A stretch of 64,000 nt of DNA from Reyranella humidisoli (GTDB taxonomy: Bacteria > Pseudomonadota > Alphaproteobacteria > Reyranellales > Reyranellaceae): positions 496,001 through 560,000 of the forward strand of contig NZ_JAHOPB010000001.1 in NCBI RefSeq assembly GCF_019039055.1, in the 5' to 3' direction. Positions 14,371 through 30,460 of this stretch are shown piece by piece. A program made the position numbers and the translations under genes. Within the stretch, counting starts at the first letter, position 1. Every line of letters starts with the position of its first letter. The notes beneath the pieces are model-generated. The model made no database searches and was not told where the DNA came from. It saw only the letters and a list, made by a program, of their open reading frames with translations.

Positions 14371-14407
14371 ACGAAACGAAACACCCCGACGTTTCGACCG
14401 GAGCGCG

Positions 14408-15262
14408 CTACGGCGCCGGCCCGGTCCACGCCTCCAGCACGTCCCACTTGGCCTTGCGCTGCTCGTCGCGCGACTTCTTGAAGTCGTGACCGAACGGGGC
14501 AGTGTCGAACGAGCCGTAGGTCGGGTTGGCGAGCATCAGCCATTGCCGGCCCCAGTAGGGCTGGCCGGCCTCGAAGGCCTTCATGCGATCGGCCTCGCTG
14601 GTGCGATAGCGGTCGTCGAAGTCGCCGAAATTGTCGCCGATGTTCAGCAGGACGCGGTAGTCCTTCGCGATGACGGCGCGGCGCGTGCCCTTGGCGCCGG
14701 TCCAGTCAGGCTTCTCGCCCTGCATCAGGAAGGTGTCGACGTTCCCGCCCATGGGAAAGCCGAGCTTCTGCATGTTCTCGCGCGTGTCCTTCTCGGTCTC
14801 CACGCCGCGGTTGGTGACGTAGAAGACCTTCACGCCCTTCGAGTCGGCATACTTGGTGAACTCCACCGCGCCCGGGATCGCGGTCGAGACCTGCGCGGCG
14901 CAGAACTGGTTCCAGCTCCTGGTGCTGAAGCTCTGGTTCGCCCGCATCATCCAGACCTGGTACTTCGAATTGTCGAGCAGCGTCTCGTCGACATCGATTA
15001 CCACCGCGGGCGGCAGGTTCGCGAAATCGCCCGTCTGCTCCGCCGGCGCCGCCGTCCAGCCCTTGTCGGCCAGCGCCTCGTCGAGCCGGACGCGCGCGAG
15101 GGCGAACACCGTGAGCGCGTTGGCCTTGTACTCGACGGCGCGCTGCGTCCACAAAGTCGCCAGCAGCATGTCACTTGCGACCGGCGCGTCCTGGGCACGT
15201 ATGGTCCCGCCCGTCAGGGACGCGAGCAGGAGACCGAGGATCAGGGTCTTGTGCATTCTCAT
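14408..15262 (-). CDS. Exported HAD-superfamily acid phosphatase (subfamily IIIB, e(P4)-like)
   Basis: This 284-residue protein has a Sec signal (MRMHKTLILGLLLASLTGG, cleaved near IRA-QD) and no lipobox, so it is probably periplasmic and soluble. The HAD motif I is VIDVDETLLDN with D90 and D92. Motif IV is NIGDNFGDFDD, preceded by the lysine of VIAKDYRVLL. Relatives dephosphorylate nucleoside monophosphates and other phosphomonoesters outside the cytoplasm. Its ATG overlaps the stop of the adenosine deaminase gene by four bases, making it the last gene of the nucleoside operon. The inferred role is to release nucleosides from nucleotides for the BMP-type importer. Confidence 0.9.
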   Translation of the reverse strand: MRMHKTLILGLLLASLTGGTIRAQDAPVASDMLLATLWTQRAVEYKANALTVFALARVRLDEALADKGWTAAPAEQTGDFANLPPAVVIDVDETLLDNSKYQVWMMRANQSFSTRSWNQFCAAQVSTAIPGAVEFTKYADSKGVKVFYVTNRGVETEKDTRENMQKLGFPMGGNVDTFLMQGEKPDWTGAKGTRRAVIAKDYRVLLNIGDNFGDFDDRYRTSEADRMKAFEAGQPYWGRQWLMLANPTYGSFDTAPFGHDFKKSRDEQRKAKWDVLEAWTGPAP

Positions 15263-16218
15263 GGTGTCACCTCCTCCAGCAAACGCCGTTTCGTTGCTTC
15301 ATCGGCGAAAGATGCCTCGATCGTCGTGCGAGCAATGGCCCGCAGATGCCGCTCGTCGAGCCCGGAGAGATCGTATTCGGTTCCGAGCGTGGTGTGGAAA
15401 AAGGGCGGATCGTCGGAGTTCAGCGTGACGCGCACACCCGCCGCGATCAGGCGATGCAGCGGATGCGAGGCCCGGTCGGGATAGAGACCCAGCGCGATGT
15501 TGCTGCCGGGGCAGACTTCGAGGACGATCCCGCGCCGCGCCAGCTCCTCCATCAGCGCCGGATCGTCGGCCGAACGCACGCCATGTCCGATGCGCGTCAC
15601 CGGCAGGTCGCGGATCGAGGCCCAGACGCTGTCAGGCCCCAGCACCTCGCCGGCATGCACGGTGCAGCCATAGCCGCTCTCGTGCGCGTGCTGGTAGGCC
15701 GGCGCGAAATCGATGGGGGCGAACTTGGCCTCGTCGCCGCCCATGCCGAAGCCCACCACATAGGGATGCGGTTCGGCGATCATCGCCTGGACCATCGCGT
15801 CGGCGCGCTCCGGCCCGAGATGGCGGATGCAGATGATGATGATGCGGCCGACGATCCCGAAGTCCCGCTCGGCATCGTCGATGCCCTCGACCAGCGCGGC
15901 CAGCCAGGCGGCATAGGGGATGCCGAGCGCGGCCGGCCTCTCGGGCGAGCAGAACATCTCGACATAGACCGCGCCCTCGCCCGCCGCGCCGGCCAGGTAG
16001 GTGTAGATCACGTCACGAAAGTCGCGCGCCGTCTTCAGGGCCGTGCAGACGCGGTCGTAGGACTGGAGGAAGCTCCAGAAATCCGTCCAGGCGTAGTGGC
16101 CCTTCTCGTCGAACAGGTTCGGCGGCAAGACGAGCCCGTTGCGTTCGGCCAGCGCGACGGCGAGCTTCGGCGGGATCGACCCTTCGAGATGGCAGTGGAT
16201 TTCGGCCTTGGGAATCAC
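15259..16218 (-). CDS. add: Adenosine deaminase
   Basis: This 319-residue enzyme is predicted to hydrolyse adenosine (and deoxyadenosine) to inosine plus ammonia. Zinc ligands are visible in EIHCHLEGS (H8, H10), CTVHAGE, RIGHGVRS and LNSDDPPFF near the C-terminus. The start is a GTG at 16218, which overlaps the stop of the dioxygenase gene as GTGA; it puts the first zinc motif seven residues from the N-terminus, as usual for the family. Its product inosine is a substrate for the purine nucleoside phosphorylase of the same operon. Adenine deaminase is a related alternative that sequence alone does not fully exclude. Confidence 0.88.
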   Translation of the reverse strand: MIPKAEIHCHLEGSIPPKLAVALAERNGLVLPPNLFDEKGHYAWTDFWSFLQSYDRVCTALKTARDFRDVIYTYLAGAAGEGAVYVEMFCSPERPAALGIPYAAWLAALVEGIDDAERDFGIVGRIIIICIRHLGPERADAMVQAMIAEPHPYVVGFGMGGDEAKFAPIDFAPAYQHAHESGYGCTVHAGEVLGPDSVWASIRDLPVTRIGHGVRSADDPALMEELARRGIVLEVCPGSNIALGLYPDRASHPLHRLIAAGVRVTLNSDDPPFFHTTLGTEYDLSGLDERHLRAIARTTIEASFADEATKRRLLEEVTP

Positions 16219-17006
16219 GCAAATCCTCGGAGCGGCAGGTCGGGTCGTTGCAGCCAGTTGTCGTCGGGATAATCGGCCCGACCGTCGATCAGGTGCAAGC
16301 TGTAGGCGTGGCGCGGCCGCGGCGAGCGGTTGGCGGTGCTGGCATGGGGCAGCAGCCCGTGCAGGACGATGAGAGCGCCGCGCCGGACTTCGAGCGCTAC
16401 CGGTTCGACGGCCGGCCACGGCGTTGCATCGAGCGTCCGGGTGACGAGGTCGCCGTCCTGGTAGCCGAACCACTGCCACAGCGGACCGCGATGGGCGCCC
16501 GGCAGGGCGGTCAGGCAACCATTGTCCCGGTCCGCGTCGTCGAGGGCGATCCAGAAGCCGGTCACGCTCGGCGGATCGGTCCGCAGGAACGTGGCATCCT
16601 GATGCCAGCCGACTTCGGCGCCGACATGCGGCTGCTTGAAGAGATACATCGACTGAAGCAACAGCGGCGCTTTCAGGCCGAGTTCACCCGCCAGGGCGGC
16701 CAAACGCGGCTGGCGTGAGAAGCGGTCGAACACCGGATCGAGATCGTGCAGGGCGTGGCCGATCTTGTTCAGCTGGCTGGCTGCCTTCTCCTCGACGAAG
16801 AAGCGGATGGCGCCGCCGGACTCCCGGAAATAGCGATCCCGGGCATGGGCCTGATCCAGCGTCGAGAAGGCGGTAGGCGCGGCGCCGGGTTGGAATCCGG
16901 CGACCATTTCGGCGGCGCGCGCCTTGAGCGCCTCGCACTCGGCGGCCGTCGCGAAATCCGGCAGTACTGCGAAGCCGTCGCGCGCATAGGCGGCGAGGTC
17001 GATCAC
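16215..17006 (-). CDS. PHYHD1-like Fe(II)/2-oxoglutarate dioxygenase within the nucleoside operon
   Basis: This 263-residue protein belongs to the phytanoyl-CoA dioxygenase superfamily. The iron facial triad is H135/D137 (GWHQDATF) and H221 (LHGLLPHAS), and R232 in [13 protein letters not shown] is a likely 2-oxoglutarate anchor. Segments such as [15 protein letters not shown] and [14 protein letters not shown] resemble animal PHYHD1, an orphan member, more than lipid-acting PhyH; this comparison is from memory. It starts with a GTG overlapping the deoA stop, and its own stop overlaps the add start, so it is translated as part of the nucleoside operon. A substrate among nucleosides, nucleobases or their sugar moieties is inference; no direct evidence of substrate is visible. 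Confidence 0.88.
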
Positions 17007-18331
17007 AAAGCCACCCGCTCCATGATCGCCGGCCGGGGCGGCGGCGGACGGTCATCGATACGAACCGCTTGCCGTATCAGGGCGATCGCCTCGTCGGCCT
17101 CGGCGTCGCTGGCGGCATGGACGAGGCAGAGCGGCTCGCCGCTGCGGATCTCCTGGCCGACGGCTGCGAACCCACTGAGGCCGACCGACGTATCGATGGC
17201 GTCGTCGGCATGACGGCGCCCGCCCCCCAGCGCCACGACGGCGATGCCGACCTCGCGAGCATTCATGCCGACGACATGGCCGGATTGCTCGGCCGTGCAG
17301 GGCTTCACGACGGCTGCGTGGCCGAGGTAGCGGGAACTGTGTTCCAGGAAGTCGTCGGGACCGCCCAGTGCCGAGACCATGCGGGCAAAGGTCTCCGCCG
17401 CGCGGCCGTCGGCCAGCGCCGCGTCGGCCTTCACCCGGCCCTCTCCTACATCGGCCGCCAGCTTGCCCAGGAACAGCATCTCGGCCGCCAGAGCCATCGT
17501 CACCTCGTGCAGGCGTGGCTCGCGCGGGCCATCGCCGGTGAGATAGGCCACCGTTTCGGCGACCTCGAGCGCGTTGCCAACCTCGCGGCCCAGCACGCAA
17601 TCCATGTCGGTGATCAGCGCGACCGTCGGCAGCCCGGCCCGGTTCGCCACGTCGACGATGCTGCGCGCGAGATCGCGTGCCATCGGCTCGGTATCGCAGA
17701 AGGCGCCGGATCCGCACTTCACGTCCATCACCAACCCGTCGAGCCCTTCGGCGACCTTCTTGCTGAGGATCGAACTCACCAGCAGCGGGATCGATTCGAC
17801 GCTGCCGGTGACGTCGCGCGTCGCATAGAGGCGCCGGTCGGCCGGCGCCAGATCGTCGGTCTGGCCGATCACGGCACAGCCGACCTCGCGCACGACGCTA
17901 CGGAACGTGTCGATGTCGGGTTGGGTCTGGTAGCCCGAGATGGCGGAGAGCTTGTCGAGCGTGCCGCCGGTATGGCCGAGGCCGCGGCCGGAAATCATCG
18001 GCACGAAACCGCCGCAGGCCGCCACGATGGGCGCCAGCATCAGGCTCACCTTGTCGCCGACCCCGCCGCTCGAATGCTTGTCGAGCACCGGCCCGGGCAG
18101 GTCGAGGTCGCGCCAGTCGAGCATCAGGCCCGAGCGCGCGAGGCCCAGGGTCAGCGCGACGCGCTCGGGCACCGTCATGCCGCGGAAGAACACGGTCATC
18201 GCAAAGGCGGCGACCTGGCCCTCAGTCAGGCTGCCGTCGTGGATGCCGCGCACGACGAAGGCGATCTCCTCCGCGCTGAGTTCGTGGCCGTCGCGCTTGC
18301 GGCGGATGATTTCCTGCGGCAGCAGGCTCAT
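17003..18331 (-). CDS. deoA: Thymidine phosphorylase
   Basis: This 442-residue enzyme splits thymidine and deoxyuridine with phosphate into a base and deoxyribose 1-phosphate. It begins [19 protein letters not shown], the typical N-terminus. It has the pyrimidine phosphorylase signature region around [20 protein letters not shown] and the [10 protein letters not shown] loop. Length is close to the usual 440. The ATG overlaps the stop of the purine nucleoside phosphorylase gene (ATGA), and its own stop overlaps the dioxygenase start. With cytidine deaminase and the phosphorylase upstream it covers pyrimidine and purine nucleoside breakdown. Confidence 0.96.
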
Positions 18332-19119
18332 GCGTATCGCTCCAGGAAGGTCCGCAGCAGCAGGCGCACCTTGCCGGCCGCCGCGGCCGCGACCGACAGG
18401 GTCTGTTCGTGAGCCAGCACGCCCGGCACCAGGCCCGCGGCATAGTTGGTCATCAGCGACAGCGCCGCCACCTTCAGCCCGGCGTGGCGCGCCAGGATGG
18501 TCTCGGGGGCCGTCGACATGCCCACGGCATCGGCGCCCAACACGCGGGCGGCGCGGATCTCGGCGGGGGTCTCGAAGCTCGGCCCGCTGAAGAAGATATA
18601 GACGCCCTCGTGGCACACGACGTTCGCCGCCTTGGCCGCCTCCAGCAGCCTGCTGCGCAGTGCGGGATCGTAGGCATCCACCATGTCGACGAAGCGGCTG
18701 TCGCCCGGCCCGACGCCGAACAGCGGATTGATGCCGGCAAAATTGATGTGATCGCCGATCGCCATCACCGAGCCCGGCGGCATGTCGAGCCGAAGGCTGC
18801 CGGCGGCATTGGTCTGCAGCAGGGTCTCGCAGCCGAGCTTCGCGACGGCATCGATGGCGCCCCGCATCTCGTCGGCCTTGCCGCGCTCGTAGTAATGCGC
18901 GCGGCCCTGCATCACCGCGACGGGAGTCGGGCCGACATGGCCCAGCACCAGGCGGCCGGCATGACCACCGACTGTAGGCTGCGGAAAGCCCGGCAGGTCG
19001 GCATAGGGAATGGTGGCGATCTCCGTCACCTCCTCGACGAAGCTGCCAAGCCCGGAGCCGAGGATGAGGGCGACCTTTGGCCGGAAGCCCGGCGCCGCGC
19101 GTTCGAGAACGTCGTTCAT
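18328..19119 (-). CDS. Purine nucleoside phosphorylase (trimeric, class I)
   Basis: This 263-residue enzyme cleaves inosine and guanosine with phosphate to the free purine and ribose 1-phosphate. Characteristic segments are [10 protein letters not shown] at the phosphate site, [30 protein letters not shown] and VGMSTAPE. The asparagine in LMTNYAAG is expected to read the 6-oxo group, indicating inosine/guanosine preference. The start at 19119 overlaps the cdd stop by four bases. It follows adenosine deaminase in the reaction order, although not in gene order. Confidence 0.94.
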
Positions 19120-19511
19120 GGCCTGGCGACGTGATGAGGGCCGAAGGACATCGGCAGGAGTTGCCCCAGCGTCACCGTGCGATGCAGCCCGTCGGGGCCG
19201 CAGAGATGGATGGGCACATCGTCGGCCGCGAACTCGCGCAGCTTCTGCCGGCAGCCCCCGCAGGGCGTGATGACTTCCGGTCCGGGGCCGACCACGACGC
19301 ATTCGAGGATGCGCCTGTGGCCCGACGCGACCAGCGACGCGATGGCGCCCGCCTCGGCGCAAAGCCCCTGCGGATAGGCCGCGTTCTCGACGTTGCAGCC
19401 ACCGTGGATCGAACCGTCCTCGGCGCGCAGGGCGGCGCCGACATGGAACTTCGAATAGGGCGCATGGGCCCGCAGCATCATGCGCTGCGCCAGACGGAGA
19501 AGGTCGTCCAT
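19116..19511 (-). CDS. cdd: Cytidine deaminase
   Basis: This 131-residue enzyme converts cytidine and deoxycytidine to uridine and deoxyuridine. It is of the short tetrameric type. [10 protein letters not shown] lies in the N-terminal part, the catalytic [15 protein letters not shown] segment carries the first zinc cysteine and the general-acid glutamate, and PCGGCRQKL supplies the other two zinc cysteines. One base separates it from the upstream permease gene, and it overlaps the phosphorylase gene by four bases downstream. Confidence 0.96.
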
Positions 19512-19512
19512 C

Positions 19513-20433
19513 TCAATGCTCCTTCTCGTAGGGCACGCCGGCCGCCTTCGGCGCGACGGTGCGGCCGATGAACCCGGCCAGCAGGAACAGGGTGAGAAGA
19601 TAGGGCATGGCCTGGATCAGTTGCACCGGAACTTCGCCGATGCCCGGCAGCTTCACGCCCTGCAGGCGGATGGCGATCGAATCGAGCAGGCCGAAGGCGA
19701 GGCAGGCGCCGAAAGCGGGAAACGGCCGCCAGCGCCCGAAGATGATGGCGGCCAGGGCGATAAACCCCTGCCCCGCCGTCATGTCGCGGCTGAAGCCGGC
19801 GTTCTGGGCGATCGAGAGATAGGCGCCCGCCAGCCCGGCGAACAGGCCGCACAGCAGCACCGCGCGGTAGCGCAGCCAGGAAACGGAAATGCCGGCAGCA
19901 TCGACCGCCAGCGGCATCTCGCCCACGGCGCGCAGCCGGAGACCGAAGCGCGTGCGCTCGATCAGCCACCATGTGAAGGGTACCGAGAGCAGTGCGGCGT
20001 AGACGATCACGTTGTCGCCCGCGACGGGGAAGAAGATCGGATTGAGCCGCTCGTTCCCGCTCAGGGGTGGCGTCTGCCCGCCGCGCGCGAACCACGCGGT
20101 GCCCAGAACCACGGTGAGACCCATCGCCAGGATGTTGAGCGCGATGCCGCTCACGACCTGGTTGCCGCGATGGGTGATGCAGGCGAAGCCGTGCAGCAGG
20201 GCCAGCGCCTCGGCGGCGAGGATCGCGGCGCCGACGCCCATCCAGGCCGAATCGGTGACCGCCGCGGTGGCGGCTCCGAAGAAGGCCGCCATCAGCATCT
20301 TGCCCTCGAGACCGACATCGATGATGCCGCTCTTCTCCGAGAACAGCCCGCCCATGGCGCAGAGCACCAGCGGCGTCGCCACGCGCAATGTCGCGGCAAG
20401 CGTCGCGATGACGAGGGTGAGCGCCTCTTCCAT
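19513..20433 (-). CDS. Nucleoside ABC transporter permease (BmpA-type system, NupQ-like)
   Basis: This 306-residue, highly hydrophobic membrane protein belongs to the branched-chain/ribose permease family. SEKSGIIDVGLEGKMLMAAF is the hallmark of the second permease of BMP-type nucleoside importers, and FGLRLRAVGE is the ATPase-contact loop. One base separates it from the first permease gene. It is predicted to form the nucleoside channel together with the gene at 20435-21532. Confidence 0.93.
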   Translation of the reverse strand: MEEALTLVIATLAATLRVATPLVLCAMGGLFSEKSGIIDVGLEGKMLMAAFFGAATAAVTDSAWMGVGAAILAAEALALLHGFACITHRGNQVVSGIALNILAMGLTVVLGTAWFARGGQTPPLSGNERLNPIFFPVAGDNVIVYAALLSVPFTWWLIERTRFGLRLRAVGEMPLAVDAAGISVSWLRYRAVLLCGLFAGLAGAYLSIAQNAGFSRDMTAGQGFIALAAIIFGRWRPFPAFGACLAFGLLDSIAIRLQGVKLPGIGEVPVQLIQAMPYLLTLFLLAGFIGRTVAPKAAGVPYEKEH

Positions 20434-20434
20434 C

Positions 20435-21532
20435 TCAGCCTTTTCGCGCGAACAGCGCCTGCAGCCAGGGCCGCGGCAGATGGACGAGCGCGCCCGAGAA
20501 CAGGATCACCAGCCCCTGGATCACCACCACCATCTCGCGGGTGATCGCCGGGACTTCGAAGGCGAGTTCCGCGCCGCCCTGCTGCAAGGCGCCGAACAAT
20601 AGCGCCGCCAGCACGATGCCCAGCGGATGGCCGCGTCCCATGAGCGCGACCGCGATCCCGGTGAAGCCGTAGCCGGCCGCGAAGTCGAGCACGAGCCTGT
20701 GATGCACGCCCAGCAGCTCGTTCACCGCCACGCCGCCCGCCAGCGCGCCGGACAGGCACATGGCGAGCATCGTCATGCGCTTGAGATTGGTCCCGGCATA
20801 GAGGGCGGCTTCCGGATTGTGCCCCATGGTGCGCAGCCCGTAGCCCCAGGGCGTGTGCCACAGGAAGATCCAGACACCCGCGCAGCAGAGCAGCGCCAGC
20901 AGGAGCGACAGGTTGAGCGCCGATGGGGCGACGGCGATACCCACCCATTGCAGGGCCGCCTGCATCGACGGCACCGCGGCCGAGGCCGCGAAGCCGCGGC
21001 TCTGCGGCGTCATCGAGCCCGGCGCGATCAGCACGTTGACCATCATGTAGACCATCAGGGCCGAGGCCACGAAGTTGAACATGATGGTGGTGATAACGAT
21101 GTGGCTGCCGCGCCAGGCCTGCATCCAGGCCGGAATGGCCGCCCACGCCGCGCCGAAGGCCGCCGATGCGAGGATGGCCAGCGGGATCATCAGCAGGCCC
21201 GGCAGGTAGCGATCCAGCGCCAGCACGGCCAGCCCGCAGCCCAGCCCGCCGATATAGGCCTGACCCTCGCCGCCGATGTTGAACAGGCCGGCATGAAAGG
21301 CGACCGCGACGGCGAGCCCGGTGAAGATGAAGTTGGTGGCGTAATAGAGCGTGTAGCCGATCGATTCCGACGAGCCCACGGCCCCCAGCACCAGCAGCTT
21401 CAGGGCCTGCAGCGGATCCGCCCCGATGACCTTCACGATGAGCCCGACGAGGAGGAAGGCCATCGCGACATTGGCGAGCGGCAGCAGGCCGATCTCGACC
21501 CAGCCGGGCAGCGGGCGGCGGGCCGTGCTCAT
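20435..21532 (-). CDS. Nucleoside ABC transporter permease (BmpA-type system, NupP-like)
   Basis: This 365-residue membrane protein is the first permease of the BMP-type importer. It includes FHAGLFNIGGEGQAYIGGLG, the conserved loop equivalent to that in its partner, and YGLRTMGHNPEAALYAG, typical of the family. Its start overlaps the stop of the ATPase gene by four bases. The following permease begins after a single base. Confidence 0.93.
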   Translation of the reverse strand: MSTARRPLPGWVEIGLLPLANVAMAFLLVGLIVKVIGADPLQALKLLVLGAVGSSESIGYTLYYATNFIFTGLAVAVAFHAGLFNIGGEGQAYIGGLGCGLAVLALDRYLPGLLMIPLAILASAAFGAAWAAIPAWMQAWRGSHIVITTIMFNFVASALMVYMMVNVLIAPGSMTPQSRGFAASAAVPSMQAALQWVGIAVAPSALNLSLLLALLCCAGVWIFLWHTPWGYGLRTMGHNPEAALYAGTNLKRMTMLAMCLSGALAGGVAVNELLGVHHRLVLDFAAGYGFTGIAVALMGRGHPLGIVLAALLFGALQQGGAELAFEVPAITREMVVVIQGLVILFSGALVHLPRPWLQALFARKG

Positions 21533-23064
21533 GCCGCGCGCGCGCCCGTCATCATCAGGCCCAGGGTGCGCTCATCGGCGTCGGCCGCGGCGACCTCGCC
21601 CACGATCCGTCCGCCGGACATCACCAGGATGCGGTCGGCCAGCGACAGTATTTCCTCGAGCTCAACCGACACGACCAGCACCGCGCAGCCCGCGTCGCGG
21701 CTGGCGATCAACTCGCGGCGGATGAATTCGATGGCGCCGATGTCGACGCCGCGCGTTGGCTGGCCGACCAGCAGCAGCCGGGGATGGCGCGCCATCTCGC
21801 GCGCCAGGATCAGCTTCTGCTGGTTGCCGCCTGAGAAACTCGATGACAGCAGGCCCGGCGTGCGCGGCCGCACGTCGAACCGCTCCATCAGTTCGGCGCA
21901 ATGCTTGCCGACCGCCGGTCCGTCGAGCAGGTAATTGTGACAGAAGGGTTCGCGATCCTGGTAGCCCAGGATCGAGGTCTCGGACGCGAGGAACGCCGGC
22001 ACCAGCCCCTGCCGCAGCCGGTCCTCCGGCACATGCGCCACACCCAGCTCGCGCATCTCGGCCGGGTCCGCGGGATGGTCGGCGTCGACCCTGCGGCCAC
22101 AGACTTCCAGCGTGCCGCCCGTCGGCCGGCGAATACCCGACAGGACCTGGAGAAGCTCGGTCTGGCCGTTGCCCGAGACGCCGGCGACGCCGACAATCTC
22201 GCCGGCACGAACCTCGAACGAGATGTCGTCGAGCACCCGGACGCGACGGCCGTCGACCAGCGACAGTCCGCGCGCCACCAGCCGCGGCTCGCCGGCGCGG
22301 ACCGGCGCCTTGTCGAAGGAGAAGCGCACCTTGCGACCGACCATCAGCTCGGCGAGTTCCTCGGCGCTGGTCTTCGAGGTCGCCCGCTCGGCCACGACCT
22401 CGCCGCGGCGCATCACGATCACCGTGTCGGTCACGCTCAGAATCTCGCGAAGCTTGTGCGTGATCAGCACGACGGTCACACCGCGGTCGCGCAGCACGCG
22501 CAGGATCTGCAGCAGACGGTCGGTCTCCTGCGGCGTCAGCACGGCGCTGGGTTCGTCGAGGATCAGGATTCGGGCGCCGCGAAACAGGACCTTGAGGATC
22601 TCGACCCTCTGCTGCTCGCCCACGGAGAGATCGGCGACGCGCGCGTCGGGATCGACGGCGAGGCCATATTCGTGTGCCAGCCGCGCCAGTTCAGTCCGCG
22701 CCGCCGCCAACCCGCCGGCAAGGAGCGGCCCGCCTTCGGCGCCCAGGATCAGGTTCTCCAGCACGGTGAAGCTGTCGACCAGCATGAAATGCTGGTGGAC
22801 CATCCCGATACCCTGCCCGATCGCGTCGCGCGGCGAGGTCATCTCGACCGGACGCCCCTCGACCCGGATCTCGCCCGCGTCCGCGCGATAGAGCCCGTAG
22901 AGGATGCTCATCAAAGTCGATTTGCCGGCGCCGTTCTCGCCCACGATGCCGGTGATGCTGCCATGCTCGATGCGCAGCGACACGCCGCGCACCGCCTGCA
23001 CGCTGCCGAACGACTTGTCGATTCCCCGAAGCTCGATGGCAGCGTGGGACGTCAGCTCTTGCAC
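21529..23064 (-). CDS. Nucleoside ABC transporter ATP-binding protein, tandem domains (NupO-like)
   Basis: This 511-residue ATPase has two fused ABC domains, as in the RbsA/YufO group. The first has Walker A GENGAGKST near residue 40, signature LSVGEQQRVEIL and Walker B ILILDEPSAVLT. The second has a degenerate GVSGNGQTE P-loop and SSSFSGGNQQKLILARE followed by LLLVGQPTRGVD. I set the start at the GTG at 23064, which overlaps the end of the binding-protein gene by 13 bases; no in-frame ATG is available before the first domain. It powers the nucleoside importer. Confidence 0.92.
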   Translation of the reverse strand: MQELTSHAAIELRGIDKSFGSVQAVRGVSLRIEHGSITGIVGENGAGKSTLMSILYGLYRADAGEIRVEGRPVEMTSPRDAIGQGIGMVHQHFMLVDSFTVLENLILGAEGGPLLAGGLAAARTELARLAHEYGLAVDPDARVADLSVGEQQRVEILKVLFRGARILILDEPSAVLTPQETDRLLQILRVLRDRGVTVVLITHKLREILSVTDTVIVMRRGEVVAERATSKTSAEELAELMVGRKVRFSFDKAPVRAGEPRLVARGLSLVDGRRVRVLDDISFEVRAGEIVGVAGVSGNGQTELLQVLSGIRRPTGGTLEVCGRRVDADHPADPAEMRELGVAHVPEDRLRQGLVPAFLASETSILGYQDREPFCHNYLLDGPAVGKHCAELMERFDVRPRTPGLLSSSFSGGNQQKLILAREMARHPRLLLVGQPTRGVDIGAIEFIRRELIASRDAGCAVLVVSVELEEILSLADRILVMSGGRIVGEVAAADADERTLGLMMTGARAA

Positions 23065-24071
23065 GAATTGTTGCTCATATAGTCGTGGACGACGATCTGG
23101 CCCGAGATGATGGCGGCCTTCGCAGCATCGACCTTGACCTTCATCTCCGGGGTGATGAGCTTCTCGTTGTCCTTGTCGAGCGCCCAGTCGACGCCGCCTT
23201 CCTTGAGGCCGAGCACCTGCACGCCGCCCTTCCATTGATTGGCCTGCGCGGTCTTGAAACTGTCGTAAGCCGCGAGGTCCACCCGCTTCAGCATCGAGGT
23301 CAGCATGTTGCCGGGATGGAGGTGGTTCTGGTTGGAATCGACGCCGATGCCCAGCTTGCCGCGATCCTTGGTGGCCTGGAGGATGCCGAGCCCGGTGCTG
23401 CCGGCGGCGGCATAGACGACATCGACGCCGCGGTCGAACTGGCCCTTGGCCAGCTCCGCGCCGCGGCCGGGATCGTTCCAGGCGGCCGGCGTGGTGCCGG
23501 TCATGTTGGTGATCAGCTCGGCATTGGGATTGGCGTACTTGATGCCCTGCTCGAACCCGCACTGGAAGCGGCGCACCAGCGGGATGTCCATGCCGCCCAC
23601 GAAGCCGATCTTGCCGGTCTTCGAGGCCATGGCCGCCAGCATGCCCACGAGGAAGGAACCTTCCTGTTCCTTGAACACCACCGACTGGACGTTGGGGAGA
23701 TTCACCACGCTGTCGATGATGGTGAAATGGATGTTGGGAAATTCCTTGGCGACCTTCTCGAGCGCGACGGCCTGCGCGAAGCCGACGGCGATGATCGGAT
23801 CCTGGCCGCGTTGCGCGAAGCGCCGCAGCGCCTGCTCGAACTGGGTTTCGTTGCTCGGCTCGAACTCGGCGACGGGGATGTTCGCCTCTTTCTTGAAGCG
23901 CTCGGCCCCCTGCCAGACGCCCTCGTTGAAGGACTTGTCGAACTTGCCGCCGGTGCTGAAGACGACGGCCGGCTTGATGGGCGCGGTCTGCGCCAATGCG
24001 ACGGCAGAGAGACCGGCGGCAGCCAGCACGGAAAGCAGCGGTCCAACCCAGCGATTCATTGCGATTCCCAT
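23052..24071 (-). CDS. BMP-family nucleoside-binding periplasmic protein
   Basis: This 339-residue exported protein is of the BmpA/PnrA family, which binds purine and pyrimidine nucleosides. A Sec signal runs through NRWVGPLLSVLAAAGLSAVA with cleavage near ALA-QT. STGGKFDKSFNEG is the typical ligand-loop segment at the mature N-terminus, and VDVVYAAAGSTGLGILQA lies centrally. The start could be the ATG at 24071 or, four codons later, the ATG at 24059. It is the first gene of the ten-gene nucleoside operon, whose promoter should lie in the 114-base divergent gap before the dihydropyrimidinase gene. It lacks an obvious lipobox. Confidence 0.93.
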   Translation of the reverse strand: MGIAMNRWVGPLLSVLAAAGLSAVALAQTAPIKPAVVFSTGGKFDKSFNEGVWQGAERFKKEANIPVAEFEPSNETQFEQALRRFAQRGQDPIIAVGFAQAVALEKVAKEFPNIHFTIIDSVVNLPNVQSVVFKEQEGSFLVGMLAAMASKTGKIGFVGGMDIPLVRRFQCGFEQGIKYANPNAELITNMTGTTPAAWNDPGRGAELAKGQFDRGVDVVYAAAGSTGLGILQATKDRGKLGIGVDSNQNHLHPGNMLTSMLKRVDLAAYDSFKTAQANQWKGGVQVLGLKEGGVDWALDKDNEKLITPEMKVKVDAAKAAIISGQIVVHDYMSNNSCKS

Positions 24072-24185: not shown

Positions 24186-25631
24186 ATGGCCGAGTACGAT
24201 CTCGTCATCCGCAACACCACGATTGCCACGGCTTCGGACGTCGTGAAGGGCGATATCGGCATCGCGGGCGGGCGGGTCGTCGCCCTCGGCGAGCGGCTCG
24301 ACAAGGGCCATCGCGAAGTCGACGGAACCGGCCGGATCGCCGTTCCGGGCGGCATCGACGCCCATGTCCATTTCGACCAGGACACGGCCGACGGCTCGGT
24401 CTTCTGCGACGATTTCGAGAGCGGCAGCCGCGCCGCCGCGGCCGGCGGCACCACGACCATCATTCCCTTTGCCTACCAGAACAAGGACCAGCCGCTGCGC
24501 GACGCGGTGAACAAGTATCACGCGCGCGCCGAGGGCAAGTCGCTGATCGACTATGCATTCCATGTGATCCTGTCGGACGCCAGCGAGAAGATCATGGGCC
24601 AGGATTTCACCGCCCTGGTCGCCGACGGCTACACCTCGTTCAAGGTCTATATGACCTACGACGACGTGAAGCTCACCGACCGCGAGATGCTCGACGCGCT
24701 GGCCGCGGCGCGGCGCGAGCAGGCCATGCTCATGATCCATGCCGAGAACTCCGACTGCATCACCTGGCTGACCGAGCGGCTGGAGCTGAAGGGCATGACG
24801 GCCGCGAAATTCCACGCCACGTCCCGTCCCTTCGTGGTCGAGCGCGAGGCCACGCATCGTGCCATCTCGCTGGCCGAGTTGCTCGACGTGCCGATGCTGC
24901 TGGTCCATGTCTCCGCCAAGGAAGCCATGCACGAGATCCAGCGTGCGCAGGCACGTGGCCTCAGGGTCTACGGCGAAACCTGCCCGCAATACCTGTTCCT
25001 GAGCGAGGAGGATTTCGAGAAGCCTGGTGACGAAGGCGCCAAGTGCGTCTGCTCGCCGCCGCCGCGCGGCACCGACAACCAGGAGCATATCTGGACCGGC
25101 CTGTCGGCAAACACCTTCCAGGTCCTGTCGTCCGACCATGCCGCCTTCAGGTTCGACGACGTGCGCGGCAAGAAGCTGCCGGGCGCGCGCGAGAGCTTCC
25201 GCAAGATCCCCAACGGCGTGCCGGGCGTCGAGACGCGCCTGCCGCTACTCTTCTCCGAAGGCGTCAACAAGGGCCGCATCAGCCTGCAGCAATTCGTGGC
25301 GCTGAGTTCGACCAACGCCGCGAAGATCTACGGCCTGCATCCGCGCAAAGGCACGATCGCCGTCGGCTCGGACGCCGACATCGTGCTGTGGGATCCCGAG
25401 CGCAAGGTGAGCCTCACCAACTCGATCCTCCACCACAATTGCGACTACACGCCCTACGAGGGTCGCGAACTCACCGGCTATCCGGTGATGACCCTGTCGC
25501 GCGGCGAAGTGGTGATGGACGAAGGCCGCATGAGCGGTTCGGCCGGCCGCGGCCAGTTCCAGAAATGCGACCGCCCCGAAGCCGCCCGCCCGCGCGGCCG
25601 GCCGCTGATCGATCCCTCAATATTTAATTAG
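24186..25631 (+). CDS. Dihydropyrimidinase / D-hydantoinase
   Basis: This 481-residue cyclic amidohydrolase opens the ring of dihydropyrimidines or 5-substituted hydantoins in the cytoplasm. The binuclear metal site is clear: H60/H62 in IDAHVHFDQ, carboxylated-lysine candidate K153 in TSFKVYMTY, H185 in MIHAENSD, H241 in LVHVSAKE and D317 in SSDHAAF. The ATG at 24186 has a GGAGG ribosome-binding site directly upstream. It is transcribed away from the nucleoside operon, so bases released by the phosphorylases could, after reduction, be its substrates. No dihydropyrimidine dehydrogenase or beta-ureidopropionase gene is in the window. Confidence 0.93.
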   Translation: MAEYDLVIRNTTIATASDVVKGDIGIAGGRVVALGERLDKGHREVDGTGRIAVPGGIDAHVHFDQDTADGSVFCDDFESGSRAAAAGGTTTIIPFAYQNKDQPLRDAVNKYHARAEGKSLIDYAFHVILSDASEKIMGQDFTALVADGYTSFKVYMTYDDVKLTDREMLDALAAARREQAMLMIHAENSDCITWLTERLELKGMTAAKFHATSRPFVVEREATHRAISLAELLDVPMLLVHVSAKEAMHEIQRAQARGLRVYGETCPQYLFLSEEDFEKPGDEGAKCVCSPPPRGTDNQEHIWTGLSANTFQVLSSDHAAFRFDDVRGKKLPGARESFRKIPNGVPGVETRLPLLFSEGVNKGRISLQQFVALSSTNAAKIYGLHPRKGTIAVGSDADIVLWDPERKVSLTNSILHHNCDYTPYEGRELTGYPVMTLSRGEVVMDEGRMSGSAGRGQFQKCDRPEAARPRGRPLIDPSIFN

Positions 25632-25766
25632 AATCTCTTCACTTCCCCATTCAAATGGGGACGTGCCCCGTCATAGGGGGCGATGGGGTCATGGGCATCG
25701 CAAAGCTTACGACCCCTCCGGCGCGACGCGCCAACTCCCCATTTGAATGGGGAGGAGATCGATTCT
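25631..25766. repeat. MITE-like palindromic element, family A (full-length copy)
   Basis: A 136-base intergenic element is bounded by inverted ends: GAATC...TTCCCCATTCAAATGGGG on the left and CCCCATTTGAATGGGG...GATTC on the right. Internal GGGGTC/GACCCC and CCCCGTCATAGGGG stems are also present. The right half matches the element at 3093-3165 in reverse orientation. It fills nearly the whole gap between two convergent genes and ends at the stop codon of the downstream minus-strand gene. Confidence 0.8.
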
Positions 25767-26436
25767 AAAGCGGCTTATAGCTCTCCAGAAAATCAACCAC
25801 CTCGGCGACCGGCAGGACATCGGCATATTTGGCGGCCATGTCGTAGAGGTTGGCGAAGTGCGGGCTCTCGTGCTTGTCGGCGACGCATTCCTCCGGAACG
25901 ATCGTGCGAAAACCGCGCGAGAGGCTATCGACCACGGTGGCGCGCACGCAGCCCGACGTGGAGCCGCCGGTGACGATCACGGTATCGACCTTGTGGAAGG
26001 TGAACAGCGATCCCAGGTTGGTCTCGAAGAAGGCCGAGGCCATGCGCTTGTTCATCACGATATCGCGGTCGCGGTCGATATCGCAGCGATCGTCGAGCTG
26101 GGCCTGCCGGCTATCGGCCTTGATGCTCTTCAGTGAAGCCGACATGTCGGCGCGCGTCCCCCAGACACCGCAATCCTCGCCCGACCCGAGATAGGCGACA
26201 TAGGTCCAGATCACTGGACAACCCTGCGCGCGCAACAGAATCGCCAGCTTGTTCACATGCTCGATCTGGCGCGGATCGGTCTCGTAGGCCGTCGCGAATT
26301 CGGCCGGCCGCGTATAGGCATTCTGGAGATCGACGTTGACCAGCGCCGGCTTGCGCCCGAATCCGAAGCGACGGCGGCGCGGATCGGCCCTCAGTGCCTC
26401 GTAGAGCTCACGCGCCGTCTTCGTCGAGGATTCCAT
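25765..26436 (-). CDS. Isochorismatase-family cysteine hydrolase (N-carbamoylsarcosine amidase-like)
   Basis: This 223-residue cytoplasmic amidohydrolase has the full catalytic triad: D36 in ALVNVDLQNAY, K130 in IVMNKRMASAF and C163 in GGSTSGCVRATVVD. Such enzymes hydrolyse N-carbamoyl compounds, maleamate, ureidoacrylate or isochorismate. It is convergent with the dihydropyrimidinase gene; hydrolysis of an N-carbamoyl product of hydantoin opening is a plausible link but unproven. It lies 23 bases downstream of the frameshifted amidohydrolase, probably in the same transcript. Confidence 0.9.
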   Translation of the reverse strand: MESSTKTARELYEALRADPRRRRFGFGRKPALVNVDLQNAYTRPAEFATAYETDPRQIEHVNKLAILLRAQGCPVIWTYVAYLGSGEDCGVWGTRADMSASLKSIKADSRQAQLDDRCDIDRDRDIVMNKRMASAFFETNLGSLFTFHKVDTVIVTGGSTSGCVRATVVDSLSRGFRTIVPEECVADKHESPHFANLYDMAAKYADVLPVAEVVDFLESYKPL

Positions 26437-28871: not shown

Positions 28872-30323
28872 TTATAGGGAAGATGGTGGCACGGTTCCCG
28901 GCCTGGGGTCGATGGGGAGGAGTTGATCGAAGCCGACCAATTTCTCGTAAAGGGCGGCGGCCTGGAGCAGCGCCGCCTCGCCGCGCGGCTTGCCCACGAG
29001 CTGCAGGCCCACCGGCCGGCCGAAACTATCGAAGCCGCAGGGCACGGCGATCGCGGGGCTGCCGGTCACCGTGATGGCCGAGTTCAGCGTCGAGCCCGAC
29101 ATGTAGTTGTCGAGCTTCTTGCCGGCGATGGTGGCGGGCGCGCGCAGGTTCACGTCGAAGGCCGCCGTCGGCGCCCCCGGAGTCACCAGCAGGTCGTAGG
29201 TCTGGAAGAAGGTGAACATCCGGCGGTACAGCGCCGCTCGTTCCCGTTCGGCCCAGGCGAGCTGGCTGGTCGTCTGCTTGAGGCCCAGTTCGGTGTTCCA
29301 GATGATGTCGGGCTTGAACTTGTCGCGATGCTGCTGGATCTGCAGCTCGCGATCGACGACGAACTGCTGGCTGCGCATCGCCATGAAGACCTCGTCGACC
29401 GGCCCGAAGTCCGGCGACACTTCCTCGACGATGCAGCCCAGCTCCTCGAAGCGCTGCGCCATCTTCGTGCAGATCTCGCGGATCTCGCGGTCCACCTCGA
29501 ACCGGCCGCCGAAGTCGATGGTGAAGGCAACGCGCTTCGGCAGAACCGGATTGGCCACGGCCGCGCTGAACGAGACGGCGGGTGCGTCGAAGGTCATGGC
29601 GTCCTGCGGGCAGAAGCCCGACATGGTGTCGAGGAAAAGCGCCAGGTCGGCGACGTTGCGGGCCATCGGGCCCTGCACCGATTGCGGTGAATAGAGATTG
29701 TTCGAGGTGCCGCGCGTGACGCGACCGGCCGAGGGTCGCAGGCCCACGGTCGAACAATAGGTGCCGGGCCGCCGCAGCGAGCCGCCATGATCCGAACCGT
29801 GCGCCAGCCAGACCTCGCCGGTGGCGACCGAGACCGAACCCCCGCCGGTCGAGCCGCCGCAGGTCAGCGAGGTGTTCCAGGGGTTGCGCGTGCGGCCGAA
29901 GACCTCGTTGAAGGTGCTGCCGCCCGCGCCGAACTCCGGCGTGTTCGACTTGCCCATGACAATGCCGCCCTTGCGCTCGATGCGCTCGACCAGCGGATGC
30001 GACTTCTCCGGCACATGGTTGGCGAAGATCGGCGAGCCGTAGGTCGTGCGCACGCCGCCCACGTCGGTCAGGTCCTTGATCGAAACCGGCAGGCCGGCCA
30101 GCCAGCCCGCCTCGCCTTCGGCCTCGTTGGCCTGGCCCGCCATGATCTTCTTCGCATGGTCGCGCGCACGATCGAGGCAGAGCGTCGGCATGGCGTTCAC
30201 CGCCGGCTCGACCTCTTCCATGCGCCGGGCCGACGCCTCGACCAGGTCGAGCGGGGTGATCTCCTTCGTTCTGAGACGCGAAACGGCCTCGACCGCGGTG
30301 AGACGCCAAAGTTCGTTGCTCAT
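28872..30323 (-). CDS. Amidase (amidase-signature family)
   Basis: This 483-residue enzyme has the Ser-cisSer-Lys triad regions of the amidase signature: lysine in PVSIKDLTDV, GGSTGGGS for the cis-serine and GSDHGGSLRRP for the nucleophile. I placed the start at the ATG at 30323 (MSNELWRLTAVEAVSRL), which gives the usual N-terminal helix. It hydrolyses an amide to acid and ammonia. The gene precedes the SDR gene by 15 bases, so cotranscription is likely. Glutamyl-tRNA amidotransferase subunit A is unlikely, because no gatB or gatC is nearby. Confidence 0.93.
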   Translation of the reverse strand: MSNELWRLTAVEAVSRLRTKEITPLDLVEASARRMEEVEPAVNAMPTLCLDRARDHAKKIMAGQANEAEGEAGWLAGLPVSIKDLTDVGGVRTTYGSPIFANHVPEKSHPLVERIERKGGIVMGKSNTPEFGAGGSTFNEVFGRTRNPWNTSLTCGGSTGGGSVSVATGEVWLAHGSDHGGSLRRPGTYCSTVGLRPSAGRVTRGTSNNLYSPQSVQGPMARNVADLALFLDTMSGFCPQDAMTFDAPAVSFSAAVANPVLPKRVAFTIDFGGRFEVDREIREICTKMAQRFEELGCIVEEVSPDFGPVDEVFMAMRSQQFVVDRELQIQQHRDKFKPDIIWNTELGLKQTTSQLAWAERERAALYRRMFTFFQTYDLLVTPGAPTAAFDVNLRAPATIAGKKLDNYMSGSTLNSAITVTGSPAIAVPCGFDSFGRPVGLQLVGKPRGEAALLQAAALYEKLVGFDQLLPIDPRPGTVPPSSL

Positions 30324-30460
30324 GCAATGCCTCCGGCGTCCAGTGTGCCAGCCTTCATCGGCCCCTGTCTGCCATCCATGTCCCGCAAACCGAGCGGGCT
30401 GGCTTGACCGTTCCGCATGCGTGCGGTCATTCCTGCATCTGCACATCGAGGAAGCGCCGC

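Follow-up and report, generated by a model that had tools for sequence, protein, structure and literature searches.

What does a dioxygenase of the PhyH family do among genes for the breakdown of nucleosides? The question is raised by a gene of Reyranella humidisoli, which we studied within a window of 64,000 nucleotides, the whole stretch of DNA analysed here (assembly GCF_019039055.1, contig NZ_JAHOPB010000001.1, forward-strand positions 496,001 to 560,000). All coordinates below are positions in this window.

A dioxygenase gene in a run of nucleoside genes

The dioxygenase gene lies at 16215-17006, where the first-pass annotation had placed it. It is read from the minus strand, from a GTG at 17006 to a stop that ends at 16215, and the plus-strand frame over the same positions is interrupted by a stop. 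It belongs to a run of ten genes that all point in the same direction, from the gene of a BMP binding protein (starting at 24071) to that of a phosphatase (ending at 14408):

23052..24071, minus strand: BMP/PnrA-type binding protein of the importer (PF02608, 229.2 bits)
21529..23064, minus strand: ABC ATPase with two ABC_tran stretches, start codon approximate (Pfam)
20435..21532, minus strand: ABC permease, BPD_transp_2 (Pfam)
19513..20433, minus strand: ABC permease, BPD_transp_2 (Pfam)
19116..19511, minus strand: cdd, cytidine deaminase, 131 aa (TIGR01354, 134.7; cut-off 113.65)
18328..19119, minus strand: purine-nucleoside phosphorylase, punA type, 263 aa (TIGR01698, 310.1; cut-off 302.6)
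17003..18331, minus strand: deoA, thymidine/pyrimidine-nucleoside phosphorylase, 442 aa (TIGR02643, 644.8 bits; cut-off 570.7); the Pfam scan used a slightly later start codon
16215..17006, minus strand: PHYHD1-type Fe(II)/2OG dioxygenase, predicted 2'-O-methyl-nucleoside demethylase, 263 aa, GTG start
15259..16218, minus strand: add, adenosine deaminase, 319 aa, GTG start (TIGR01430, 317.1; cut-off 216.55)
14408..15262, minus strand: class IIIB acid phosphatase, e(P4)-like 5'-nucleotidase, the run's last gene (PF03767, 136 bits)

Adjacent genes overlap by 4 to about 13 bases or are separated by one-base gaps. Given these junctions and the shared direction, the ten genes very probably form one operon. 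The dioxygenase gene itself overlaps its neighbours by four nucleotides at both ends, GTGA in each case, with the deoA stop at 17003-17006 and with the add start at 16215-16218, which confirms an earlier observation. We call the phosphatase e(P4)-like only, because its score against the e(P4) model TIGR01533 (194.1 bits) is under the cut-off of 216.05; its first 25 or so residues, judged by eye, look like a signal peptide. A promoter scan of the operon found no sigma-70-like site. Terminator-like sites numbered six against 4.0 (sd 2.0) expected, two of them at 14377-14406, right after the last gene; as evidence the scan is too weak for use.

In its tight succession of cdd, punA, deoA, add and importer genes, the run resembles a deo-type nucleoside catabolism operon with a BMP/PnrA-type ABC importer. 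Unlike such an operon, it adds the dioxygenase and the e(P4)-like phosphatase. The genes deoB and deoC are absent from the window run and present in the runs of other genera. On the opposite strand, 114 bases from the operon's first gene, a divergent dihydropyrimidinase gene occupies 24186-25631, and beyond it lie genes for an isochorismatase-domain protein (25765-26436) and an amidase (28872-30446); these three perhaps represent more pyrimidine breakdown.

Kinship with PHYHD1 and its published activity

The dioxygenase matches all 213 positions of the Pfam PhyH profile (PF05721; positions 1-213, 143.9 bits, cut-off 22), and no NCBIfam model matched it at E 1e-5. The iron triad H135, D137 and H221 and the 2OG-binding R232, residues already pointed out by the first-pass annotation, are invariant in the 47 alignment rows and align with H156, D158, H246 and R257 of human PHYHD1. 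The protein is therefore a predicted Fe(II)/2OG oxygenase. The resemblance to PHYHD1 proposed at the same time also held. Human PHYHD1 (2opw/3obz) is the top PDB sequence match at E 5.5e-49 (170.2 bits), against E 1.6e-12 (50.6 bits) for EvdO2, the next distinct sequence. The alignment of the window protein with 46 relatives (47 sequences) yielded an AlphaFold2 model with a mean pLDDT of 93.1 and a pTM of 0.92, and the model's double-stranded beta helix with the HxD...H triad matches 3OBZ. Foldseek ranks 3OBZ first (1.4e-26) and 2OPW second (2.0e-25), with the third entry at 5.2e-14. VIA-align gives the two PHYHD1 entries Z scores of 34.8 (2OPW; 254 residues, 1.9 A, 40% identity) and 34.6; the next entry reaches 25.0 and human PHYH 23.8.

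We found 17 PhyH-family matches in the organism's own 5.5-Mb genome; the dioxygenase is the best of them, and the other 16 are distant from it. With the dioxygenase as query at E 1e-20, 67 of 75 family genomes (its own counted) contain a match, one in each, and it is therefore not a chance open reading frame. Our tree holds 59 proteins: the window protein, 46 relatives, human PHYHD1 and 11 of the 16 own-genome paralogues, the five paralogues without a locus being outside both the tree and the residue counts. One relative with a truncated start, L156, is outside the alignment and tree and inside the residue counts. Human PHYHD1 and the bacterial proteins form one clade, separate from the 11 paralogues, with support of 100/99, and within it human PHYHD1 falls in a group of 45 rows (100/100) that excludes three bacterial rows. 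The tree program cautions that the paralogues and this clade are joined through long branches; the exact place of human PHYHD1 is unsure because of these branches, including its own of 1.45. Together, sequence, fold and tree support the placement of the window protein in the PHYHD1 group of Fe(II)/2OG oxygenases.

The first-pass annotation had treated PHYHD1 as an orphan of open function. That status no longer applies. Stonkus et al. (NAR, Dec 2025; PMC12709175) report that PHYHD1 and bacterial relatives demethylate free 2'-O-methylated nucleosides, an activity described for human, other animal, fungal, plant and viral relatives and for four bacterial ones: FJS, a metagenomic enzyme found by selection on 2'-O-methylcytidine, and the enzymes of Sphingomonas, Poribacteria and Acidisoma. 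In this 2OG/Fe(II)-dependent reaction, a 2'-O-methyl nucleoside yields the plain nucleoside and formaldehyde, whose release was shown for FJS; the authors propose that the reaction passes through an unstable intermediate formed when the methyl group is oxidised. As described there, FJS and human PHYHD1 both tolerate many bases in their action at the 2'-O position; neither accepts nucleotides or 3'-O-modified nucleosides, and the 2'-O-methylated RNAs tested gave no activity. Human PHYHD1 isoform C is given as inactive. The legend of their Fig. 2 lists one tested PhyH-family enzyme as active on 2'-O-methylguanosine only, with others inactive. Knockout of phyhd1 in zebrafish is reported to raise free 2'-O-methylated nucleosides and to leave the level of the modification in RNA unchanged. 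The authors place FJS in one clade with PHYHD1. The window protein resembles FJS and the other three bacterial enzymes, known here by their published description, in being a bacterial PhyH-family protein.

We compared the active sites by aligning the window protein to residues 9-280 of human PHYHD1. M141 and W174 of the human enzyme, which we take to line the active site, correspond to M120 and W152, both kept in 47 of 47 relatives (window protein excluded, truncated L156 included). In the published docking to human PHYHD1, the ribose is contacted by K102, H105, Q139 and W277 and the base stacks on F161 (PMC12709175); the corresponding residues of the window protein are K81, H84, Q118, W251 and F140. 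Among the same 47 relatives, the lysine is kept in 47, the histidine in 46, the glutamine in 47 and the tryptophan at W251 in 46. The 11 own-genome paralogues all keep the iron triad and arginine, and they share the lysine in no case, the histidine in none, the glutamine in two and the tryptophan in one. This pattern, present in the relatives and nearly absent from the paralogues, thus marks a subgroup and not the whole PhyH family. One relative (L140:8006-8851), which branches near the base of the clade, keeps the lysine, glutamine, methionine and tryptophan and has alanine for the ribose-contact histidine; it might be a specificity variant.

The window protein is therefore like human PHYHD1 isoform A (2OPW, 3OBZ) in fold, iron ligands, arginine, ribose contacts, stacking phenylalanine and clade. 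It differs from the human protein in its place in a bacterial salvage operon, in G133 for S154, a residue said to aid purine binding (PMC12709175), and in having about 11 residues fewer before NKIGHA and four fewer in the alpha-4 region, where model helices 52-56 and 58-65, with the four-residue deletion, fall at the position aligned with the extra human helix near the cavity opening (Q56-L71). Because of G133 and the shortened loops, the rim of its pocket differs from that of the human enzyme. It also differs from the bacterial demethylases as described in PMC12709175, which have tyrosine at the F161 position; in the 47 relatives this position is Phe in 31, Tyr in 15 and Trp in one.

These comparisons bear on what the substrate may be. 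The gene's place in a nucleoside operon would suit a hydroxylase of nucleosides or nucleobases, one that 2'-hydroxylates 2'-deoxynucleosides or 7-hydroxylates thymine, as the first-pass annotation had suggested, and a 2OG nucleoside 2'-hydroxylase, PDN2'H of Neurospora crassa, is mentioned in PMC12709175. However, comparison with the PDB, human PHYHD1 and the paralogues shows close kinship to proven 2'-O-methyl-nucleoside demethylases and retention of the docked ribose contacts, and we judge hydroxylation very unlikely. The enzyme could also be an oxidative demethylase or dealkylase that in nature acts chiefly on some other modified nucleoside, such as a 2'-O-methyl nucleoside with a modified base. 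This would accord with the altered pocket rim and with the published preferences of FJS, which was most active on 2'-O-methyl-5-methylcytidine and accepted 2'-O-allyluridine (PMC12709175). Against this stands the action of FJS and human PHYHD1 at 2'-O across many bases and not at 3'-O, and we likewise assign this substrate a very small probability. The lead toward a nucleoside was right and is supported here; the reactions originally named are probably wrong, since the published activity is 2'-O-demethylation.

Recurrence of the salvage neighbourhood

We asked how far the operon setting extends, using all 40 matches outside the window's genus: 34 from a search of the class (38 of 385 genomes positive at E 1e-30) and six more from a search of the phylum (9 of 398 positive at E 1e-20). 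Both searches scored at most six first-look candidates per genome, so misses are possible. A search at order level, which covered the family set plus one genome, added no match. Where the contig allowed, we searched about 8 kb on each side with tblastn (E 1e-8); the queries were the window's proteins and the deoB and deoC products of one relative, L129, and an ATPase match counted at 40% identity or more. Neighbour counts rest on tblastn; a simple gene caller overlooked the dioxygenase in 10 of 44 loci.

Conservation of the neighbourhood, whose absence the first-pass annotation had taken as evidence against its reading, extends beyond the genus. At least two of cdd, punA, deoA, deoB, deoC and add lie near 17 of the 40 relatives, which by a tally of genus labels are spread over 12 of 32 genera, and at least three importer genes also lie near 17 of 40. 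Salvage or importer neighbours occur in 18 and neither in 22; no salvage gene lies near 23 of the 40, some of them on short contigs. Two sets of other PhyH genes served as controls: 15 stretches around the 16 others of the own genome scored 0 of 15 on the salvage and importer measures, and the best other PhyH gene in each of the 18 salvage- or importer-positive genomes scored 0 of 18 on both. None of the six salvage genes was found in any of these control stretches. The dioxygenase recurs in bacterial nucleoside-salvage operons without being universal in them.

These results weigh on the view that the protein is a phytanoyl-CoA-like or other unrelated hydroxylase that sits in the operon by chance. 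The family name favours it, and PhyH proteins are many and diverse, as the 17 matches in this genome illustrate. Yet salvage neighbours accompany 17 of 40 non-genus relatives versus 0 of 33 control stretches, the fold is closer to PHYHD1 (Z 34.8) than to human PHYH (Z 23.8), and human PHYH is described as inactive on 2'-O-methyl nucleosides and FJS as having no more than trace activity on phytanoyl-CoA (PMC12709175). We consider such a chance association extremely improbable.

Gene order varies among the operons. The dioxygenase lies between deoB and add in four loci (L129, L130, L142 and L143), between deoA and the phosphatase in L145, and first, before the BMP gene, in another four (L138, L144, L146 and L158). 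The phosphatase gene is near one of the 40 non-genus relatives; the phosphatase step is local. Among 49 named loci, mostly from Reyranella and its kin and hence not independent, and several clipped by contig ends, the dioxygenase is found in 48 (absent from L099), deoA in 45, add and punA in 44 each, cdd in 42 and the phosphatase in 41. Of two loci from Acidimicrobiia, one (L098) carries importer genes of 31-45% identity just upstream of the dioxygenase and on its strand, with little sequence available downstream; in the other (L096), an add-like gene (28% identity) follows the dioxygenase at 1.6 kb, and importer genes (31-47%) are found on the opposite strand at a distance of 5.6 to 9.5 kb.

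To map the operon label (24 rows, hand-labelled) onto the tree takes eight changes, at least five of them forced by well-supported branches, and the link between dioxygenase and operon was therefore gained or lost several times. A deoA search (E 1e-60) limited to the eight family genomes that lack the dioxygenase found no match in six, two of which are less than 90% complete. In the other two, no add match lies within 1.5 kb downstream of deoA (G071, locus L199) or the contig ends (G028); thus, among these genomes, no clean deoA-add junction lacking the dioxygenase was seen.

Two relatives occur in other settings. A protein of 43% identity (L157:8028-8927) is encoded beside genes for an 8-oxoguanine deaminase and a xanthine permease on the opposite strand, another nucleobase setting, which is outside our salvage count. 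On a mobilizable plasmid of Azospirillum ramasamyi (NZ_CP029836.1; L180:7947-8798), the gene of a PHYHD1-like protein, 49% identical, lies downstream of two SAM methyltransferase genes and genes for a TauD-family dioxygenase and a large hypothetical protein. This cluster looks biosynthetic rather than salvage-related. In the protein, R replaces H84 and Q replaces M120, and it may therefore act on a different substrate.

A predicted step in nucleoside salvage

Because of its kinship with the tested enzymes (PMC12709175), and by analogy with them, we consider it highly likely that the window dioxygenase is a 2'-O-methyl-nucleoside demethylase that feeds nucleoside salvage. In the pathway that we propose, 2'-O-methylated nucleosides would originate from broken-down RNA. 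The e(P4)-like phosphatase would free nucleosides from nucleotides outside the cytoplasm, and the BMP-type ABC transporter would import them. The dioxygenase would then strip the 2'-O-methyl group from imported 2'-O-methyl nucleosides, making them usable by the neighbouring enzymes, and Cdd, Add, PunA and DeoA would deaminate and phosphorolyse the products. In keeping with this mechanism, E. coli DH10B delta-pyrFEC, which has ordinary nucleoside salvage, is reported to leave 2'-O-methylcytidine unmetabolised (PMC12709175).

The activity itself is already known; the operon setting is the genomic contribution made here. The main text of PMC12709175 makes no mention of genomic neighbourhood, thymidine phosphorylase or adenosine deaminase and names an operon once, for pyr genes; it recalls an earlier suggested cluster in which the gene of a 2'-O-methyluridine hydrolase (RK9NH) lies beside that of a deoC-like aldolase. 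Our search of titles and abstract openings, with preprints outside its scope and subscription journals thinly covered, found no published account of the dioxygenase in a nucleoside-salvage operon.

The recurrent operons lend independent genomic support to a nucleoside substrate and suggest a reason, salvage, for which bacteria maintain the enzyme; their carriers include cultured species (Reyranella strains). They also suggest a rule for annotation: the name phytanoyl-CoA dioxygenase should be withheld from PhyH proteins with the pattern K/H...QxM...HxD...W, above all where they neighbour BMP importers and deo genes. We give even weight for and against a broader reading, in which Alphaproteobacteria and some Actinomycetota would have a dedicated pathway for feeding on the ribose-methylated fraction of RNA, with a PHYHD1-type demethylase that recurs in uptake and deo operons and was inserted there more than once, and in which the animal enzyme would descend from, or share a common origin with, a bacterial salvage enzyme.
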